NCBI GenBank assembly: GCA_028281285.1
Contig: JANQKF010000040.1
Span: 1-64,000, forward strand
DNA: 64,000 nt
Direction of reading: 5' to 3'
Source of the DNA: Cyclobacteriaceae bacterium
GTDB lineage: Bacteria > Bacteroidota > Bacteroidia > Cytophagales > Cyclobacteriaceae
The notes under the pieces were generated by a model. That model made no database searches. It was not told the origin of the DNA and saw nothing but the letters and a program-made list of their open reading frames with translations. This document shows positions 544 through 54,257 of this stretch, one piece after another (within the stretch, counting starts at the first letter, position 1; each line of letters starts with the position of its first letter). The translations under genes were made by a program, and so were the position numbers.

Positions 544-1407
544 ATGTCCGAAAGACATCAGTTTTTTAAGAAATATGTCGCTCTTCTCGAGCCCATTTAT
601 GAACGGCCTGAAGCAGAAGAGCTTGTCTATCGACTTATAGATGCTCACCTGGATAAAACGAGGCTTCAATTCTGGGATATTGCTGAAGAGAGGTCAGACC
701 TGAAAGACAAGGACTTGCTCGCAAAGTTTGACTCGGCCATACAAAGGTTGCACAATAAAGAACCCGTACAGTATATCGTAGGGCACACATATTTTCTGGA
801 TTATAAAATTCAGGTCAATCCATCGGTGTTGATACCTCGCCAAGAGACGGAAGAATTGGTTCTAAAAATTATCGATAGAGAAAAGTCAAATCAAGATTTG
901 CGAATCCTGGATATTGGAACGGGGTCTGGCTGTATACCTATTGCACTGGCAAGTCAGTTAAACACAAGTCTTGTGATAGCGCTCGATATTAGCTACCAAG
1001 CCTTGGAAGTGGCACAGAAGAATATTGCTCTTAATAATGTCGATGTCATCACAAAAAGGGCTGATATCTTGTCAGATGAATTTGATTTGAAGAATCTGGA
1101 CTTAATAGTTAGTAATCCGCCATATGTTTTGAACTCGGACAAGACTTGTATGAAAGACAACGTACTTAAACATGAACCAAGTCTCGCGTTATTTGTCCCA
1201 GATGACGATCCTCTTAAGTTCTACAAGGCAATTGCAGAACAAGGATTAAAATTATTAAAACCGGGCGGCCGGCTTTATTTTGAGATTCATGAGCGCTACG
1301 GGACTGAGGTTCAGGATGTTTTGGAAAGTAAGGGTTATATCAATGTAGAAATTATTCAGGACACCTTCCTTTCTAAAGATAGAATGGTATTTTCACAAAT
1401 AGGATAA
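544..1407 (+). CDS. prmC: PrmC, release factor glutamine N5-methyltransferase
   Basis: Methylates the glutamine of the GGQ loop in peptide-chain release factors RF1 and RF2, using S-adenosylmethionine. The 287-residue length is normal for the family. An all-helical N-terminal domain (about 1-75) is followed by the linker motif IPRQETEEL (about 97-105). The Rossmann methyltransferase fold has the SAM loop DIGTGSG (about 123-129) and the diagnostic catalytic NPPY at about 191-194, which in this family binds the substrate glutamine. It diverges from ribD, with a short shared promoter region. The next gene starts 64 bases downstream. Confidence 0.95.
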   Translation: MSERHQFFKKYVALLEPIYERPEAEELVYRLIDAHLDKTRLQFWDIAEERSDLKDKDLLAKFDSAIQRLHNKEPVQYIVGHTYFLDYKIQVNPSVLIPRQETEELVLKIIDREKSNQDLRILDIGTGSGCIPIALASQLNTSLVIALDISYQALEVAQKNIALNNVDVITKRADILSDEFDLKNLDLIVSNPPYVLNSDKTCMKDNVLKHEPSLALFVPDDDPLKFYKAIAEQGLKLLKPGGRLYFEIHERYGTEVQDVLESKGYINVEIIQDTFLSKDRMVFSQIG

Positions 1408-1471
1408 TACCATATTTTATTATCTTTAATCGGTATTTAATCTATATTGATTATCTATTCAGAAGTTTTTG

Positions 1472-2158
1472 ATGAACAACCTGATCTTATTACACGGTGC
1501 ACTGGGGAGCGAGGCGCAATTGAAATCATTAGGCGATTCTCTTTCTAACTTATTTAATATCCATACTCTTAATTTCTCCGGTCATGGTGGTAAACCTTTC
1601 TCAGATTCCGGGTTTGGCATTATGGAATTTTCTCAGGAGCTGAGGGACTTCATTATTCTAAACAAACTGCACGGCACCCCGATTTTTGGATATAGCATGG
1701 GAGGATATGTAGCTCTTAAGGTAGCTCAGAGCAATCCCGACCTGGTAGGCAAAATCTACACACTGGGCACAAAGTTCGACTGGAACCCCCTTTCGGTAGA
1801 ACAAGAATCCAAAAAACTAATTCCTCAGGTGATTGAAGAAAAAGTCCCGGCATTTGCACAGCTATTGGCCAGCCGACATGCTCCCAATGACTGGAAGGAA
1901 GTGGTGCTGAATACAAAGGAAATGATGCTTGGATTAGGTCAAAGTCCAGTCTTAAGTAAATCGGAGCTCCTGGAAGTTACGAATGACTGCATTATAGCCT
2001 TGGGAGATCAGGACAACATGGTGACTGAGGAAGAAACGAAGTGGGCAGTCGACCACCTTCATTTCGGCAAATTAAGGGTGTTGGAACAAACGCCACATCC
2101 CATTGAAAAGGTCGATATTGACTTACTTTCGGCTGAAATTGTAGCTTTCTTTCAATAA
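1472..2158 (+). CDS. Alpha/beta hydrolase
   Basis: A small cytoplasmic alpha/beta-hydrolase of 228 residues. The oxyanion-hole segment LLHGALGS is at the N-terminus, the nucleophile elbow GYSMGG puts the catalytic serine near residue 75, GDQDNM near 178 suits the acid, and the histidine of QTPHPIE near 210 completes the triad. The start is taken at the ATG at 1472; a TTG one codon earlier is also in frame. No signal peptide is seen. The substrate cannot be told from the sequence: esterases, lactonases and MenH-like enzymes all share this plan. Confidence 0.8.
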   Translation: MNNLILLHGALGSEAQLKSLGDSLSNLFNIHTLNFSGHGGKPFSDSGFGIMEFSQELRDFIILNKLHGTPIFGYSMGGYVALKVAQSNPDLVGKIYTLGTKFDWNPLSVEQESKKLIPQVIEEKVPAFAQLLASRHAPNDWKEVVLNTKEMMLGLGQSPVLSKSELLEVTNDCIIALGDQDNMVTEEETKWAVDHLHFGKLRVLEQTPHPIEKVDIDLLSAEIVAFFQ

Positions 2159-2205
2159 TCTCACCCTTTTCTCTTCCGGAATACTAATTGATCGTATCTT
2201 TTTTT

Positions 2206-3051
2206 ATGAAAAAGGCCAGCTATCTCCTTTTATACTTAACGTGCTTTCAGGTATTGACTGTCGCTCAGGAAAAGTTTGATGATAATGAAGCGGTAAAAAC
2301 AGCATTCTTATTCGGTCTCAAAAAGCATCAGAATATTGTCGAACACCTAAAAAACCTTAATTCACAGTCTGACTATGCTATCAATTATGGCAAGCAGAAT
2401 CCTCTGTTGACCGAACTTGTTGAAGGCCCGGGACCTCATCGAATCGTCTTTGTGGATCACATGTCTTATGTCGATCGCGATTCCCTTTTCGACCTCACAT
2501 TGAATGATCGATTTCGTTGGATGTATTTTTTGGCCCTGACCAACACCTTGGATGAATACGCCTTTGTCGATAACCCGTCAGAAATCGATAGTGCTACGCT
2601 TGAGACCGCGCGTAGACTCTACCATGATCAAAGTCAATATGTGTACATATTAGAGCTTGGCGGAAATCGGTCCAATGTCTCCCAAGTTGCCCCGGTTTTG
2701 GATCAAAAAGAGGTGGATCAATTACCGGTTCCCGTTGGTGGTCTGGAAAATTTTCTAAGGGCAGTTACCTTAAACGTGCCAGGTCGGGAAGAAATTGACT
2801 TTTCCAGTTTTCCTACTTATTCTGAGTTCGAGGTAGAGGTGGGTGGTGGCTATCGGATGAATTCAGTTGCAGTACTTACCAAATTTGATTCAGTCTTAGA
2901 CCCTGATGGTCAACAGACTAAATTCTTGGAGGCGATTGCAAGAAATATAGAGGATTACTCACACAATCAATATCCTTGGGAACCAGGGATCAAGGATGGC
3001 AAAAAAGTAGTGGTAAAAATGAAGCTCAGGATTCCCAGAGGGTATTTCTAA
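2206..3051 (+). CDS. Exported protein of unknown function
   Basis: Not recognised. The ATG at 2206 gives a typical signal peptide (MKKASYLLLYLTCFQVLTVAQ), so the ~281-residue protein is probably periplasmic or outer-membrane associated. It is rich in acidic residues, and its tail is basic (KDGKKVVVKMKLRIPRG). No transmembrane segment beyond the signal, no lipobox and no catalytic motif was found. Its stop overlaps the stop of the convergent downstream gene by four bases. The reading frame is intact and codon use is like that of the neighbours, so it is likely a real gene. Confidence 0.6.
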   Translation: MKKASYLLLYLTCFQVLTVAQEKFDDNEAVKTAFLFGLKKHQNIVEHLKNLNSQSDYAINYGKQNPLLTELVEGPGPHRIVFVDHMSYVDRDSLFDLTLNDRFRWMYFLALTNTLDEYAFVDNPSEIDSATLETARRLYHDQSQYVYILELGGNRSNVSQVAPVLDQKEVDQLPVPVGGLENFLRAVTLNVPGREEIDFSSFPTYSEFEVEVGGGYRMNSVAVLTKFDSVLDPDGQQTKFLEAIARNIEDYSHNQYPWEPGIKDGKKVVVKMKLRIPRGYF

Positions 3052-3686
3052 TTGTTGAGCAAATCTTCTACCACCCAAAGCGGTTTTTGATTGGTTTGAA
3101 TTTTCACTTTCCCAGATAGCTCTGAAGTCAATTCTATAGGTTCAATCAACATTTCATTTTCCCATTCTGTATAGAATCCTTCAGTCGTTAAAAAAGTGTT
3201 TGAACTGACAGGATGAATCGCCATGATTTTTCCGGTGTCGATCCATTTCTCAAAGATACCCTGACGGGCGTACACCCATTTTTGATTATTGTAGAAGACC
3301 ACTGAATCAATCTTGGAGGAAAATAGTCTGGCAAATTCCAGTACTTGTGAATTGAAAATATCTCCAAGTACGTTTACTGCGCTATAGTTATTCTCTAAGA
3401 GGAATTGGTAGGCGTTCTCAAGCAAATCTCCCGATTCAAACCCCAGAAGTTTCACCGGGCTTTGCTCTTGTAATTTTGGTTTGAGTGATTCAATAGAATC
3501 AAAAAATGCCACCACAATATCAATCTTGATTCCCCACTTTAATACCTCCTTCAACGCAGGTTCAAGCACCATCACAGTCGGGCTCCACTCAAGTAACGAA
3601 TCCACAAAATCTACTTCGAGTGCCTGTGGGTCTTGAATCAGCACTGCAGGTTCCTGCTCATCGCGAACTATGTGATGGGAAGACAT
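3048..3686 (-). CDS. Thiamine pyrophosphokinase-like protein with altered active-site motif
   Basis: A 212-residue cytoplasmic protein that resembles thiamine pyrophosphokinase (TPK) by eye. IDIVVAFFDSIESL (about 55-68) lines up with the TPK signature DLIVGDFDSI, and SGDLLENAYQFLLENNYSAVNVLG fits the KD-TD-helix-strand segment that follows in the family. The first acidic pair of the signature (GD) is AF here, so metal/ATP binding may be changed or lost. It may be a diverged Bacteroidota TPK or a non-catalytic relative. A thiamine uptake locus lies ~4 kb away. Function is inferred from motif resemblance only. Confidence 0.45.
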   Translation of the reverse strand: MSSHHIVRDEQEPAVLIQDPQALEVDFVDSLLEWSPTVMVLEPALKEVLKWGIKIDIVVAFFDSIESLKPKLQEQSPVKLLGFESGDLLENAYQFLLENNYSAVNVLGDIFNSQVLEFARLFSSKIDSVVFYNNQKWVYARQGIFEKWIDTGKIMAIHPVSSNTFLTTEGFYTEWENEMLIEPIELTSELSGKVKIQTNQKPLWVVEDLLNN

Positions 3687-3701
3687 GAATGCAAATTTAA
3701 T

Positions 3702-4454
3702 TCATCTCACCACCAATTTATCCTCTAAAAGGACTTTGAATATTTCCTCCCTCTTTTTCCTGTTAAATGGAATACTATCACCATTAGTCATGAAAATCTC
3801 ATTTCCATCTATTCGATCAACATTTCTTCTGTTCACAATGTAAGACCGATGTATTCTCAAAAAGTCGGCCTCCTTCAATCGGTCCATAATCTGCCTCAGG
3901 GTCAGATAAACAATATATTCCTCTTTGGAACAACGAATCTTAACGTAGTTCTGAAATCCTTTTATGAATAGAATGTTTGCAAACTCAATTCTCTGGTAAA
4001 CCCCTTGAGTCTTTACGAAGAAATATTCATCGTTAAATTCTGCCCGTTGACCCTTCTCTATTGAAGTCGGATCACCATCATTATTGACTTTGCTCAGAAA
4101 GTTTTCCACTCCAAATATTATCATTAAGGCGATCAATGTATAAAAACTCATAACAAAAGCCTTGGCATCCGGTAATGGCTCCATCAGTCCGAGAGCATAG
4201 TAGAGGCCGTAATAATAATAGAAGTTGATTGCCACCAGTAACACTACGCTTGACGCAAGGAATATCAACCAGCTTTTTCTGATCAGAAGCCCAGGGATCA
4301 ACACCCCCTTCATTACATAATAGGCGATCATTACAGATGTGACTTTAAAGAAAGGCACAGTCCACAATGAACTTGTTTCAAACTGAGATCTCCATAGAAC
4401 CAGAACTCCAAAATAGACAAGCCAACCAATGGATTTTCTCAAATATAAACTCAT
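3702..4454 (-). CDS. Membrane-anchored LytTR-family transcriptional regulator
   Basis: A 250-residue DNA-binding protein with four predicted N-terminal membrane helices (about 8-24, 33-50, 60-80, 100-118) and a C-terminal LytTR domain (about 150-245). Landmarks of the LytTR fold are ILFIKGFQNYVKI, FLRIHRSYIVN and the terminal PFNRKKREEI. It has no receiver domain and no histidine kinase beside it, so it is not a standard two-component regulator; membrane-bound LytTR proteins of this build are common in Bacteroidota. Targets are unknown. It lies 15 bases upstream of the TPK-like gene in the same orientation and may share its transcript. Confidence 0.82.
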   Translation of the reverse strand: MSLYLRKSIGWLVYFGVLVLWRSQFETSSLWTVPFFKVTSVMIAYYVMKGVLIPGLLIRKSWLIFLASSVVLLVAINFYYYYGLYYALGLMEPLPDAKAFVMSFYTLIALMIIFGVENFLSKVNNDGDPTSIEKGQRAEFNDEYFFVKTQGVYQRIEFANILFIKGFQNYVKIRCSKEEYIVYLTLRQIMDRLKEADFLRIHRSYIVNRRNVDRIDGNEIFMTNGDSIPFNRKKREEIFKVLLEDKLVVR

Positions 4455-45711: not shown

Positions 45712-45720
45712 GACTTGGTA

Positions 45721-45800
45721 TTACGAGGAACAAGCAAAGCTGTGATGAAGTAATCTCTTTTTTTGAACTGGAGATTGCTTCACTACGTTCGCAATGACAG
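45721..45800. repeat. Palindromic intergenic repeat, family 1, copy 1
   Basis: Begins TTACGAGGAAC and ends CTACGTTCGCAATGACAG, with imperfectly complementary ends and an AGTAATCT/AGATTGCT middle. Copy 2 (46108-46184) is the same over most of its length. It overlaps the 5' part of the GIY-YIG reading frame. Confidence 0.82.
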
Positions 45801-46101
45801 TCAATTAAATATCTGGGGCTACAATTACTTCATCTACATACTGACCAACAAGAATCATACAGTCCTTTACACTGGAATGACGAATGATCTTCAAAGACGT
45901 ATCTATGAGCACAAGGAAAAGCTTGTCAAGGGTTTTACCAAAAAATACAATGTTGACAAGCTGGTCTATTATGAAAGGTTCTCGCATGTTGAAGCAGCTA
46001 TATCGAGAGAAAAACAAATTAAGGCTGGTTCTAGACAAAAGAAGGTTGATTTAATCAGTAGTATCAATCCTGAATGGAATGATTTGTATGACCGAATTTG
46101 A
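45763..46101 (+). CDS. GIY-YIG nuclease-domain protein
   Basis: A small single-domain GIY-YIG protein of at most 112 residues. The motif is FIYILTNKNHTVLYTGMTNDLQRR by position (about 23-46), with YI..L and YTG where GIY and YIG are expected, the arginine in LQRRIYEHK, and the metal-site glutamate in AAISREKQIKAG. There is no ATG before the conserved core; translation must begin at a TTG (45763 or 45775), both within the flanking repeat. A second repeat copy begins six bases after the stop. Relatives are uncharacterised and commonly lie among repeats in Bacteroidota. Confidence 0.78.
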   Translation: MNWRLLHYVRNDSQLNIWGYNYFIYILTNKNHTVLYTGMTNDLQRRIYEHKEKLVKGFTKKYNVDKLVYYERFSHVEAAISREKQIKAGSRQKKVDLISSINPEWNDLYDRI

Positions 46102-46107
46102 CTGCCA

Positions 46108-46184
46108 TTACGAGGAACGCGGAGCGTGACGAAGTAATCTTTCTCTTTGAATTGCAGATTCCTTCACTACGTTCGCAATAACAG
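46108..46184. repeat. Palindromic intergenic repeat, family 1, copy 2
   Basis: Direct copy of 45721-45800 on the other side of the GIY-YIG gene: TTACGAGGAACGCGGAGCG, AAGTAATCT, then TTCACTACGTTCGCAATAAC. Small differences and one shortened segment show some age. Confidence 0.82.
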
Positions 46185-46194
46185 TTCCCTTTTT

Positions 46195-46246
46195 GTCATC
46201 CCGAGCTTGTCGAGGGATCTAGATGCTGAAACAAGTTCAGCATGAC
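46195..46246. repeat. Palindromic intergenic repeat, family 2, copy 1
   Basis: GTCATCCCGAGC at one end and GTTCAGCATGAC at the other, with GTCGAGGGATCTAGATGCTG between. The outer bases pair (GTCAT/ATGAC), and GCTGAA pairs with TTCAGC. The rest of the 46102-46427 gap (46247-46371) shows nothing recognisable. Confidence 0.75.
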
Positions 46247-46371
46247 TAAAGAATTACCCCACATGAATATTCGGGATATAGCTTTTGGTCGTTACTTTTC
46301 CTGGCAAAACGCACCGACTCTTTACGCTTCAGCACACGTGCTATGGTTGATTAAAAAAGTCAAAATAAAAA

Positions 46372-46424
46372 TTTGTTTTACAAGTTCAATAGAAATATAT
46401 TATATTTGTTTTACAAATTCAATA
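46372..46424 (+). promoter_or_regulatory. Tandem PadR-type operator over the padR promoter
   Basis: Two direct copies, 33 bases apart, of TTTGTTTTACAARTTCAATA (46372-46391 and 46405-46424; R is G, then A). Each contains the inverted repeat TTGT-TTT-ACAA. A TATATTTG -7-like box (46401-46408) enters the second copy. The ATG follows three bases later. Confidence 0.65.
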
Positions 46425-46427
46425 CTT

Positions 46428-46760
46428 ATGGGTCGGACATCTTATTTGGGAGAGTTTGAAGAGTTGATCCTTACCATGGTGCTCATCCTCGAAGACAATG
46501 CCTATGGCAACACCGTTGTCAAGGCCATCAAGGAGCATCAAAACCGGGAGATCAACCTAAGCTCGGTGCACATCACACTCTATCGGCTGGAAGAAAAAGG
46601 CTTTCTCAGCTCACATATGGCGGGTGCCACCAATCAGCGCGGAGGTCGTAAGAAACGATACTTCACCATTACAAATGCCGGTAAGTCTCTGCTTCAGGAA
46701 ATGCAGGCGGCTCGTATGAACCTCTGGAAACTAAGCCCTCTGCTGAACTCCAAATCATGA
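46428..46760 (+). CDS. PadR-family transcriptional regulator
   Basis: A 110-residue winged-helix repressor. LGEFEELILTMVLILED and the helix-wing region LSSVHITLYRLEEKGFLSS, then GGRKKRYFTITNAGKSLL, are typical PadR. The start is the ATG at 46428, directly after the twin operator; an open frame upstream back to 46242 crosses the promoter and is not used. Its stop overlaps the permease start by four bases. PadR plus a permease with an N-terminal prefix domain is a recurrent Bacteroidota pair. Confidence 0.9.
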   Translation: MGRTSYLGEFEELILTMVLILEDNAYGNTVVKAIKEHQNREINLSSVHITLYRLEEKGFLSSHMAGATNQRGGRKKRYFTITNAGKSLLQEMQAARMNLWKLSPLLNSKS

Positions 46761-49372
46761 GTAAGCCCAGCCCCCCGAAAGCCCTGGTCCGGTTTCTCAA
46801 GTGGTACAGCCGGTCTAAACTACAGGAGTCGATTCTGGGCGACCTTGAAGAGCAATACTATGAAGACATTGATGTCTATGGTCTCAGAAGGGCCAGGTTC
46901 CGCTTTAGTTGGAATGTTTTCCGGTTCATAAGGCCTGGTATCATAAGAGAATTCGAAGGAAATCAACAACTCAATCACTACGGCATGGTCAAGCAACATT
47001 TCAAAACGACATTCAGAATTATCAAACGGGAGAAACTTTACTCGCTTATCAACATTTTGGGACTCACGGCAGGCTTCAGTATCGCCTTGCTCACACTTTC
47101 CTATGTGTATTTTGAGCTAAGCTATGAACAGCACAATCCCAATAGTGATCGGCTGGTTCGCATTACCATGGACTACCTTGACGGTAAAACCCTGATCGAT
47201 CAGGATTGCGAAACCTATCATCCGCTCGGGCCTATGATCAAAGAGCAGTTTCCCGAAGTGGAGGAGTATGCCAAAGCCTTCAGAATGAATGCAGCAGTCA
47301 TCAAAGTTGATGATCGGAATTTCAGAGCTGAACGCATTTATTCAGTCACTCCCAGTTTCTTTGAGTTATTCCACTACCCCTTCATTTACGGCAATTCTGA
47401 AACCGCATTCAGAGGTCAGCTCGAGGTAGTACTCACACGCTCGATGGCGATGAAATACTTTGGCAAAATCGATGTATTGGGAGAAACCCTCTGGGTATCT
47501 ACTACTCGACAACAAATGGAAGTGGTCGGAGTAGTTGAAGATAGCCCAGCCAACACCCATTTCAAGTTCGACATCCTCTATCCTTATGAGATGATGAAGG
47601 AAACCCTGGCTAAAAGAAACAGCCAATGGGAGAGCAATGATACCTTCACCTACTTTTTACTGAATCAGTCTAATCAGTATGAGCGATTCAGGCAGTCACT
47701 GGATCGTCTGAACAAACAGCTAATAGCAGAAGAAAAAATCGTTAATGAAAGGGTCATCAGTCAACGGGCTTCCGATGTACATCTCTATTCGCATAAGTCT
47801 TTTGAGGCCGAAGTGAACGGAGATGCCACCATCGTTTTCTTTTTGCTCGGAGTGGCCATATTGGTAATCATCGTTGCCATTGTTAATTACATCAACCTAG
47901 CTACTGCCAAGTCGTTGGACCGGGCCAAAGAAGTAGGTATCCGTAAGGTCATCGGTTCTTCACGTACTCAATTGAGGTTGAGGTTTTTTATCGAATCTTT
48001 CACAATCAACTTCATATCAGGTCTGTTGGCTCTGGGTATTATCGCACTGGTCACTCACCAGTTCAAGCAATTGGCAGGCCTGCCCACGGATTTCGACTTG
48101 TTTTCGAATCCTCAGTTCTGGATCCTTTTCCTAACTATGGTGATAGTCAGCAGCTTTTTAGGAGGGATTTTCCCCGCTTATACCATTGCTTCTTTTGATC
48201 CGCTGGCAATGTTAAAAGGAAAATTTTCCAGCTCAGCCATCGGAGTTTGGCTCAGAAAAGGATTGGTCGTGTTCCAATTCGCAATAGCCACTTTCTTATT
48301 AATTCAAACCTTCACCTCTATCCGCCAACTGGAGTATATGCAGAACAAGGACCTGGGATTGAATGCAGAACAGGTTTTGGTGGTGAAAACTCCAGCTACA
48401 GCGCGAGAAATGAAAAACCTGACACCCTTCCGAGATGCGCTTCTTAATCAACCCAGTATCAGCTCAGTCTCTCTTTCCAACTGTATCCCTGGCTTACCCA
48501 CGAGCATGATGGGAAGTACGACCAATGTTAACCTAGTGGGCTCTGTGGACAGGCATAGTTTCAATTTCTTCCTGTATTTCTTCGATGAGCACTTCATCCC
48601 TACCATGAAAATGAAACTCTTGGCGGGAGAAAATTTCAGAGAGGGAAGGCAAGCCGGGGATGTGATAGTGAACGAAGAGGCCATCAGGCTATGGGGCATC
48701 ACAAGCCCGGAAGAAGCTATCGGGAAAAAGATAAATCTTGGTGAGTCATCCACGATTGTGGGCGTGATCAAAAACTTCCACCAAACCGGGGTCAAATCCA
48801 ATCACATCCCTATGATTTTCAGGCATTCCCGTAACTGGGGCAACTATTTTAGCCTCCGACTCAGCTCCGGAGATGCCAGATCGCAGATAGTTGCCATTGA
48901 GGAGTCTTACAATACTCACTTTAACAGTCCCTTCGAGTTCTTCTTCCTCGATGAGAAGTATGATGCCCATTTTAGGACAGATCAACAGTTCCAAACCGTA
49001 TTTGGTACACTAAGCCTCTTTGCATTGCTAATCACCTGCCTGGGTATTTTCGGCCTGGCATCATTTACGGTGGCCAAAAGACAAAAAGAAATTGGCATCA
49101 GAAAGGTATTGGGAGCCACGATCATCCAGATTATCGGTTTGCTTTCGAAGGAGTTCTCTGCCCTGATCGTCATAGCTACTATGCTATCCATACCTGTGAC
49201 TTACCTAGTTATTCAGAGTTGGCTTAATACTTATGCCTACCATATCGACATTCAGGCGAGCCTGTTTGCCTTGCCGGCCTTCATCGTCATCGCCATTGCC
49301 CTGATCACCATCCTGTCCCGCACCCTTCAGATTTCGAAAACACAACCAGCCGATGTGTTGAGGAATGAGTAG
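46757..49372 (+). CDS. FtsX/MacB-type permease with N-terminal prefix domain
   Basis: 871 residues; like the 801-residue permeases at 31-36 kb but with an extra ~75-residue N-terminal soluble segment (permease prefix domain; LKWYSRSKLQESILGDLEEQ). Then come one helix, a MacB core domain, an FtsX block with EVGIRKVIGSSRTQ, a second periplasmic domain, and an FtsX block with EIGIRKVLGATIIQI. No ATPase is adjacent. It is coupled to, and probably repressed by, the PadR protein. It is more distant from the tandem pair than those two are from each other. Confidence 0.88.
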   Translation: MSKPSPPKALVRFLKWYSRSKLQESILGDLEEQYYEDIDVYGLRRARFRFSWNVFRFIRPGIIREFEGNQQLNHYGMVKQHFKTTFRIIKREKLYSLINILGLTAGFSIALLTLSYVYFELSYEQHNPNSDRLVRITMDYLDGKTLIDQDCETYHPLGPMIKEQFPEVEEYAKAFRMNAAVIKVDDRNFRAERIYSVTPSFFELFHYPFIYGNSETAFRGQLEVVLTRSMAMKYFGKIDVLGETLWVSTTRQQMEVVGVVEDSPANTHFKFDILYPYEMMKETLAKRNSQWESNDTFTYFLLNQSNQYERFRQSLDRLNKQLIAEEKIVNERVISQRASDVHLYSHKSFEAEVNGDATIVFFLLGVAILVIIVAIVNYINLATAKSLDRAKEVGIRKVIGSSRTQLRLRFFIESFTINFISGLLALGIIALVTHQFKQLAGLPTDFDLFSNPQFWILFLTMVIVSSFLGGIFPAYTIASFDPLAMLKGKFSSSAIGVWLRKGLVVFQFAIATFLLIQTFTSIRQLEYMQNKDLGLNAEQVLVVKTPATAREMKNLTPFRDALLNQPSISSVSLSNCIPGLPTSMMGSTTNVNLVGSVDRHSFNFFLYFFDEHFIPTMKMKLLAGENFREGRQAGDVIVNEEAIRLWGITSPEEAIGKKINLGESSTIVGVIKNFHQTGVKSNHIPMIFRHSRNWGNYFSLRLSSGDARSQIVAIEESYNTHFNSPFEFFFLDEKYDAHFRTDQQFQTVFGTLSLFALLITCLGIFGLASFTVAKRQKEIGIRKVLGATIIQIIGLLSKEFSALIVIATMLSIPVTYLVIQSWLNTYAYHIDIQASLFALPAFIVIAIALITILSRTLQISKTQPADVLRNE

Positions 49373-49556
49373 TGTTGTGCAAGAAATTTCGAAGTGGTGA
49401 AATAATTCGCGTACAAAAAAAGTTGACCCTTAGCTTTTGAATTTGGGAGTTTTACTTTTTTGCTCGCCTACAGAAGCGACATAAAAGAGTGAAAAGCCGC
49501 TAAAGACTCCTTCACCCAAATGGGCTCCGAACCTTTAGATATTGGAGTAAGCCTGT

Positions 49557-49596
49557 CTGTCGAGGGATCTAGATGTTGAACCAAGTTCAGCATGAC
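49557..49596. repeat. Intergenic repeat, family 2, copy 2 (truncated)
   Basis: TGTCGAGGGATCTAGATG through AAGTTCAGCATGAC matches copy 1 at all but two of 39 bases, in the same orientation; the left end GTCATCCCGAGC is missing. With copy 1 it brackets the PadR-permease pair. Confidence 0.7.
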
Positions 49597-50598: not shown

Positions 50599-50686
50599 CG
50601 TCACTCTGACCCCGAGTGCTCGGGGGAAAGAGTCTCCAAGTTGTAAAAACGGGATTCTTTCGGTCGCAAGCTTCCTCAGAATGACG
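50599..50686. repeat. Palindromic intergenic repeat before the hydroxyproline operon
   Basis: Ends CGTCACTCTGA and TCAGAATGACG are inverted copies with one mismatch; inside is a perfect CCCCGAG-TG-CTCGGGG hairpin (50610-50625). It lies in the 232-base divergent region between the AraC regulator and the operon. It belongs to the same general type as family 1. Confidence 0.7.
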
Positions 50687-54143: not shown

Positions 54144-54247
54144 CGTCATTGCGAGGAGCGCAACCGATATTCGTCCGGATGCGTGACGTGGCAATCCCCT
54201 TATCGCGTTTAGGAGATTACTCGTCACTTCGTTTACCTCAGAATGAT
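54144..54247. repeat. Palindromic intergenic repeat inside the hydroxyproline operon
   Basis: CGTCATTGCGAGGAGCGCAA opens it and CAGAATGATG closes it, with a GGCAATCCCC/AGGAGATTACTCGTCACTTCG middle. It is of the same type as family 1 (45721 and 46108). It separates the first three operon genes from the rest and supplies one possible start codon of the next gene. Confidence 0.75.
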
Positions 54248-54257
54248 GCGATGCAAA

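Follow-up and report, generated by a model that had tools for sequence, protein, structure and literature searches.

Small palindromic repeats are common in bacteria, and their GTAG class has a known associated enzyme, RAYT. For the CGTC class, a survey reports none (Di Nocera et al. 2013, PMC3733652). The CGTC-tagged REPs are described there as dispersed stem-loops with a CGTC end, for which the survey reports no dedicated transposase and among which Neisseria dRS3 and Rickettsia RPE-4 and RPE-6 are counted. In REP/RAYT systems (REPtrons), small palindromes are dispersed, the enzyme gene is flanked by copies of the repeat, and enzyme and repeat vary together. Free-standing GIY-YIG homing endonucleases have that catalytic domain with conserved residues and are encoded by patchy, site-linked genes, and Slx1, another protein compared here, acts on branched DNA according to the titles of its PDB entries. 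Penelope-like elements are eukaryotic retrotransposons with reverse transcriptase; they are reported to have a GIY-YIG endonuclease, palindromes, repeats that may extend over the initial ORF codons, and target duplication on insertion, with duplications of 8-10 bp or none (PMC3846280).

The locus reported here lies in a 64,000-nt stretch of a Cyclobacteriaceae genome (contig JANQKF010000040.1, positions 1 to 64,000), hereafter the window, and contains the gene of a small GIY-YIG nuclease between two copies of a palindromic repeat. The features of the window are the following:

45720..45801, plus strand: left palindromic direct-repeat copy, a degenerate CGTC-type REP by alignment and folding, holding both TTG starts; family ATTACGAGG..AGTAATCTC/GAGATTGCTTC..CGCAATGACAGT
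45763..46101, plus strand: ORF of a small single-domain GIY-YIG nuclease (Pfam, invariant residues, AlphaFold model, PDB neighbours)
46107..46185, plus strand: right palindromic direct-repeat copy (alignment, folding)
46195..46246, no strand assigned: second, different GTCAT..ATGAC palindrome directly after the right copy, core GTCATGCTGAAC on the minus strand at 46235
49558..49596, no strand assigned: 95% copy of part of the 46195..46246 palindrome, core GTCATGCTGAAC on the minus strand at 49585, beyond a PadR-MacB gene pair
50599..50686, no strand assigned: nuclease-free CGTC-type REP, CTGAG family, with outer stem, side arm CCCCGAGTGCTCGGGG and central arm
54144..54248, no strand assigned: chimeric, nuclease-free CGTC-type REP whose 5' end belongs to the GCGAGG family and whose 3' end belongs to the CTGAG family

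A preliminary description of this DNA placed the ORF between two direct palindromic repeats, and the alignment confirms it. The copies, 82 and 79 nt long, have 84% identity over 82 columns when gapped, and 87% over 60 nt when ungapped (45742-45801 and 46126-46185). The flank alignment score is 47, whereas 1448 window positions tested with identical geometry as controls reach at most 17.5. Both are mostly self-complementary when folded (MFE -22.4 and -21.4 kcal/mol). The CGTC end is degenerate in both copies, and because of this degeneracy a palindrome scan of the window under strict settings (arms of 11 nt, up to 2 mismatches) found none. The two flanks are the close copies of this repeat, with a few weaker matches elsewhere. 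The palindromes at 50599-50686 and 54144-54248, which the same description had listed as related and free of a nuclease, are indeed of the same general kind, with CGTC at the 5' end and no adjoining GIY-YIG gene. Also as described, the only possible starts of the window ORF are two TTG codons, 60 and 48 nt upstream of the domain, both inside the left copy.

From the first TTG, the protein has 112 aa, with a match to Pfam PF01541 (GIY-YIG) at residues 21-93 (E 8.6e-17), and neither Pfam nor the AlphaFold model (pLDDT 93, 48 sequences) contains a further domain beyond the catalytic domain of about 100 residues. The protein retains the invariant residues Y, Y, R, H, E and N, which we take to be catalytic by comparison with I-TevI. 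The closest PDB fold to the model is UPF0213 BH0048 (Foldseek E 7e-5), followed by Slx1 entries (E 0.01 and above); a sequence-profile search also places UPF0213 first (1zg2, E 2.1e-10), and NCBIfam and PHROGs give weak matches only, mostly to homing endonucleases. Across the family, the median dN/dS is 0.12 (range 0.04-0.31) in 55 usable of 296 pairs, which overlap in members and count one ORF under two names, and these ratios show the nuclease genes to be under purifying selection.

The parallel with REP/RAYT drawn in the preliminary description is apt as an analogy, that of an enzyme gene flanked by dispersed repeats, but the enzyme is unrelated: Pfam finds GIY-YIG only, the PDB neighbours are UPF0213 and Slx1, and no HUH/Y1 tyrosine transposase was found in the window ORF. 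Likewise, the GTAG tag of REP/RAYT systems was not found at the repeat ends, which are GTCAT/ATGAC here. Further differences from these systems are the few copies per genome in this genus, the long target duplications, and a sister clade of nucleases on tRNA genes. From free-standing homing endonucleases, the window protein differs in having no separate DNA-binding region that could be found, and its family in having palindromes or tRNA genes as sites, with long duplicated flanks. Slx1 and UPF0213 are its best structural neighbours; neither is known to be encoded by a mobile gene with its own targets on both sides. To the preliminary description the arrangement was not a known system; in the open literature (titles and abstracts among the matches listed) no paper was found for it, nor any that connects REPs or duplicated tRNA genes with GIY-YIG genes of bacteria.

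The association extends to the whole genome of this bacterium, in which GIY-YIG matches occur at 12 places, 10 of them in small stand-alone frames (one shortened by TGA), and direct repeats of 15-102 nt bracket 10/10 of the small ORFs. The left copies of these ten repeats gave no matches when compared with each other at E 0.01, by which a single repeat family for all loci is rejected; L004 and L006 nevertheless share one kind of ends (CTGAG family). Some of the ten repeats are palindromes, the repeat of L002 is the end of a tRNA gene plus its terminator, that of L003 is part of tRNA-Leu, and that of L008 is the 68-nt start of a sir2 gene. The single repeat family assumed in the preliminary description does not stand, given these ten repeats and the sister clade on tRNA genes. 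The ORF with the in-frame TGA (L009, around 2043-2210) lies between 47-nt direct repeats.

For a wider sample, loci were picked by hand, mostly from the same genus, among the matches listed in 39 genomes; they held 104 ORFs, or 101 after removal of three duplicates (L026, L032, L042). With an alignment score of at least 14 as the call, flank repeats were found in 77/101 ORFs versus 44/1930 control positions of the same loci; the locus of 20 of these ORFs contains a second nuclease ORF, and there the neighbouring copy can raise the score. The enrichment over other DNA that the preliminary description had named as a check is strong in both clades described below, R (40/53) and T (37/48), and is also present in a cross-phylum clade-R set, with 36/81 testable ORFs versus 31/1111 distal controls. 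The ORFs without a flank repeat by the score test (24/101 in the sample, 45/81 across phyla) count against the explanation preferred below. In the same sample, the idea that the repeat is in general part of the gene finds no backing: every possible start lies inside the repeat in 8 of the 77 repeat-flanked ORFs, some possible start does so in 22/101 (an ATG in 10 of those 22), and in 35 of the 40 repeat-flanked clade-R ORFs an ATG follows the repeat ahead of the domain. To start within the repeat is unusual and not the general rule.

The tree of the 101 ORFs splits into clades T and R with support of 100/99; it was built from few columns, and its inner forks are only partly settled. Clade T has 48 rows, of which 32 have an intact tRNA gene within 350 nt, six a tmRNA (by motif label), nine other repeats and one none. 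The 53 rows of clade R, which includes the window gene, have no tRNA label; direct repeats are present in 40, none are found by the score test in 12, and one is labelled tmRNA solely because its locus also holds a clade-T ORF. All tRNA genes listed beside sample ORFs (43/43) are in the direction of the ORF, as are those at clade-T loci outside the genus. The clade-T profile, made mostly from tRNA-side members, matches in 73/118 sampled genomes of the phylum, and at 27/29 best loci outside the genus (own-genome locus excluded) a tRNA gene lies within 400 nt; at clade-T loci outside the genus, flank repeats were found in 30/36 testable ORFs.

Many clade-T loci have an intact tRNA gene with a terminator on one side of the ORF and a pseudo-tRNA on the opposite side, in which a hairpin replaces the anticodon arm and often also the T arm (for example TCCCGA...TCGGGA or CCCCGA...TCGGGG). 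The retention of an intact tRNA gene on insertion, a trait of integrative elements in tRNA genes, is thus found in clade T (the 32/48 rows and 27/29 loci above). In L108 the inserted unit of about 390 nt, read by eye, consists only of the GIY-YIG ORF and the pseudo-tRNA. Two further arrangements were observed. L279 contains a tandem array (1129-4024) of 7.9 units of 364 nt, each with a GIY-YIG ORF, a hairpin-armed pseudo-tRNA tail and a terminator. The loci L084, L085, L087, L097, L098, L100 and L068, whose ORFs form a seven-member subclade, have about 370-420 nt of similar DNA in common, and six of them have a tmRNA motif.

In clade R, many repeats have GTCAT...ATGAC ends, which places them in the CGTC class of PMC3733652. 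In a strict scan for CGTC-type palindromes (11-nt arms, near meaning within 350 nt of the ORF), these were found near the ORF in 13/50 clade-R loci of the sample (0.353/kb near versus 0.115/kb far), and in 1/41 clade-T loci (0.023 versus 0.022/kb), which is no enrichment. For the cross-phylum set, named genomes of many phyla were scanned with the clade-R alignment, and GTCAT...ATGAC palindromes lie near 34/80 loci, the best 80 of 577 (0.605 versus 0.073/kb, 8.3-fold). Palindromes of the strict scan on both sides of the ORF are rare (2/50 sample clade-R loci and 6/80 across phyla), and both this rarity and the limited share of loci with one near the ORF (13/50 and 34/80) also count against the preferred explanation. 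The core GTCATTGCGAGS has 7 to 60 copies versus 0 to 2 for its reversed control in eight cross-phylum genomes, hand-picked mostly for flanks of that family. In L044, seven REPs of 136-137 nt, mostly with a period of about 165 nt, lie upstream of a GIY-YIG gene (140-1410).

These densities bear on whether chance or ascertainment could produce the association, palindromes being common between genes and small ORFs being intergenic. REPs do occur far from the nucleases as well (0.073-0.115/kb), but the excess of flank repeats over the controls (77/101 versus 44/1930) and the opposite patterns of the clades, T being tRNA-adjacent without palindrome enrichment and R the reverse, refute this explanation, to which we give hardly any probability.

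Within clade R, nuclease and repeat family go together at unrelated loci, as judged from comparisons of protein and flank sequences. Protein identity correlates with the similarity of the non-coding flanks in the sample (rho 0.316, 54 ORFs), across phyla (0.258, 80) and in both together (0.406, 134), with 0/2000 permutations as high in each case. The control with distal DNA gave rho 0.04 in the sample and 0.009 in both sets together (188 and 636 of 2000 permutations as high), values biased towards zero because locus pairs with similar distal DNA had been dropped. The clade-R set used in this correlation and in the palindrome scan includes one clade-T row, the tmRNA-side ORF of L068. A Mantel test (rho 0.427) was discarded since its flanks overlapped the 3' coding end, and the non-coding flanks were used instead.

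This pairing would be expected if the nuclease were the dedicated mobiliser of CGTC REPs, a functional counterpart of RAYT that acts in trans on solo REPs and transfers its own gene as a REP-gene-REP unit. The nuclease gene is flanked by its own, co-diverging repeat family, copies of that family are dispersed without a nuclease, so that this trait of REP/RAYT systems is present, and CGTC REPs are reported without a transposase (PMC3733652). However, the number of REPs depends weakly on the presence of the cognate nuclease (one-sided p 0.010, or 0.059 without the nuclease-adjacent copies, which were removed by hand), in genomes that are non-independent and for which nuclease presence was taken from the matches listed, so some genomes counted as without may have one; among these, G018 has 8 REPs and G013 has 6. 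Palindromes on both sides occur in few loci of the strict scan. The small GIY-YIG nuclease is, from its sequence context, a candidate for the dedicated enzyme of CGTC REPs, and we consider the full mobiliser reading possible while leaning slightly against it.

The shape of the targets may link the two clades. In single-sequence fold predictions, the CTGAG-family REPs of L046, L004, L006, L090 and window position 50599 have an outer stem and three arms, unlike some entries of that list (L057 and L080, for example), in which these are not clear. These REPs have similar sequences in the outer stem and the central arm, and side arms that vary between copies and remain palindromic. The side arm CCCCGAGTGCTCGGGG at 50599 is of the type of hairpin arm that replaces tRNA arms in clade T, and because such arms occur both in REPs and in clade-T pseudo-tRNAs, the predicted folds suggest a common structural rule for target choice in clades R and T.

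Comparison of sites with and without the nuclease points to duplication of the target. In L008 the order is a second copy of the sir2 start, the nuclease and sir2; the copy has 23 codons, 95.7% identical at the protein level. The sir2 gene is present in 19/19 genomes of the genus, and its 5'-end duplication of 68-69 nt around a nuclease is found in this genome only; at the sir2 loci of the relatives, a second sir2 piece (tblastn, E 1e-5) or a nuclease is absent in 18/18. The HD-domain gene that adjoins the duplicated start in L008 lies upstream of sir2 in 14/18 relatives, in 13 of them within 250 nt. At a tRNA-Asn locus, the nuclease of G004 lies between two copies of about 120 nt, and G005, with 94.7% identity to G004 upstream, has one copy and no nuclease, as apparently does G014. 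Relatives without the nuclease thus have the single copy (68 nt at sir2, about 120 nt at tRNA-Asn in G005); a comparison of empty sites in sister strains had been proposed in the preliminary description. Since G006 shares the insertion of G004, the tRNA-Asn sites of G005 and G014 may be losses through recombination between the repeats, and loss is as possible there as non-insertion.

Other orthologous sites without a nuclease are L156 and L159 (for L109), L165 and L144 (for L075) and L148 and L155 (for L025). L160, L166, L151 and L152 were rejected as empty sites because nuclease ORFs or pieces of them are present. At the tRNA-Ala locus of G014, relatives have the tRNA and the pseudo-tRNA adjacent, without a nuclease, so the order of events is not fixed there; in L163 and L164, a hairpin-armed pseudo-tRNA comes after an intact tRNA-Ala, and no nuclease separates the two. 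The KMO (kynurenine monooxygenase) gene next to the window locus is present in 19/19 genomes, with a nuclease near it in 1/19. Gene order downstream of KMO varies among the relatives, with other palindromes there in G011 and G017, and this variation led to the rejection of the KMO locus as a drawn empty site for the window insertion.

Presence and absence at orthologous sites is also what a free-standing homing endonuclease would produce, for which REPs and tRNA genes would be safe and plentiful landing sites: it would cut the empty site by sequence and be copied in by homologous repair, the palindromes being moved otherwise. GIY-YIG is the domain of known homing endonucleases, there are weak matches to TIGR01453, an endonuclease of group I introns, and to PHROGs of homing endonucleases, the clade-target pairing is expected of a sequence-specific cutter, and REPs are few (0-19 per core motif per genome in 19 genomes). 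Set against this are the protein itself, with no domain found beyond the catalytic one, the intact tRNA that remains beside the nuclease and would be recut, and the 68-nt duplication of a non-repeated gene start, since long duplication of a gene start is not known as a usual product of homing. We regard homing as a possibility whose odds fall a little below even.

A host structure-specific repair nuclease captured by tandem duplication, around which the repeats merely recombine, would agree with the UPF0213 and Slx1 folds as closest solved structures and with the tandem arrays of nuclease and pseudo-tRNA. It is improbable, because the gene shows presence/absence patterns and non-orthologous loci, being patchy (beside KMO in 1/19), placed at many unrelated sites and paired with a repeat family.

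Here it is proposed, with a probability of roughly 0.7, that the window ORF is a mobile gene for a structure-directed nuclease, in partnership with cloverleaf-like DNA. The proposal builds on the association, the clade-target pairing, the single-copy state without the nuclease and the purifying selection shown above. According to it, genes of small single-domain GIY-YIG nucleases would insert next to DNA capable of a branched, cloverleaf-like fold, and a second copy of the target, tens to more than 100 bases long, would remain on the other side of the gene. The clade of the window gene would use CGTC-type palindromic repeats as target and would have co-diverged with them; the sister clade would use tRNA or tmRNA genes and often leave a pseudo-tRNA with strong hairpins in place of the anticodon and T arms. 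When its cognate repeat is in the branched form, the nuclease would nick the two strands at points far apart; during repair, the nuclease gene and the repeat would be copied into the break, which would duplicate the target and preserve the host function (tRNA, gene start). The same nick-and-repair reaction may also spread solo repeats.

A broader form of this proposal, which we offer tentatively and judge slightly less probable than its opposite, is that the dedicated enzymes long missing for CGTC-type palindromes across bacterial phyla are the single-domain GIY-YIG nucleases, which would recognise cloverleaf-like branched DNA and use distant nicks to move repeat and gene, with duplications of tens to more than 100 bases as the outcome. 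Recognition of such DNA would explain the tRNA/tmRNA sister clade and the swapping of hairpin arms. A nuclease gene between CGTC repeats, co-varying with them and recurrent across phyla, makes the question of what moves these REPs directly testable, and the tRNA sister clade with its hairpin-armed pseudo-tRNAs connects a single nuclease superfamily with palindromic repeats as well as with tRNA genes. It would also assign a role to a widespread small protein annotated by its domain alone.

Directly after the right repeat copy (46195-49596), a gene for a PadR regulator and a gene for an 871-aa MacB/FtsX-type permease lie between the two GTCAT-type palindrome copies listed above, which are 95% identical over 39 nt. 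Several relatives have an apparent AraC-type gene, read by eye, after the KMO gene instead of this block, and because of this the PadR/MacB block looks inserted.
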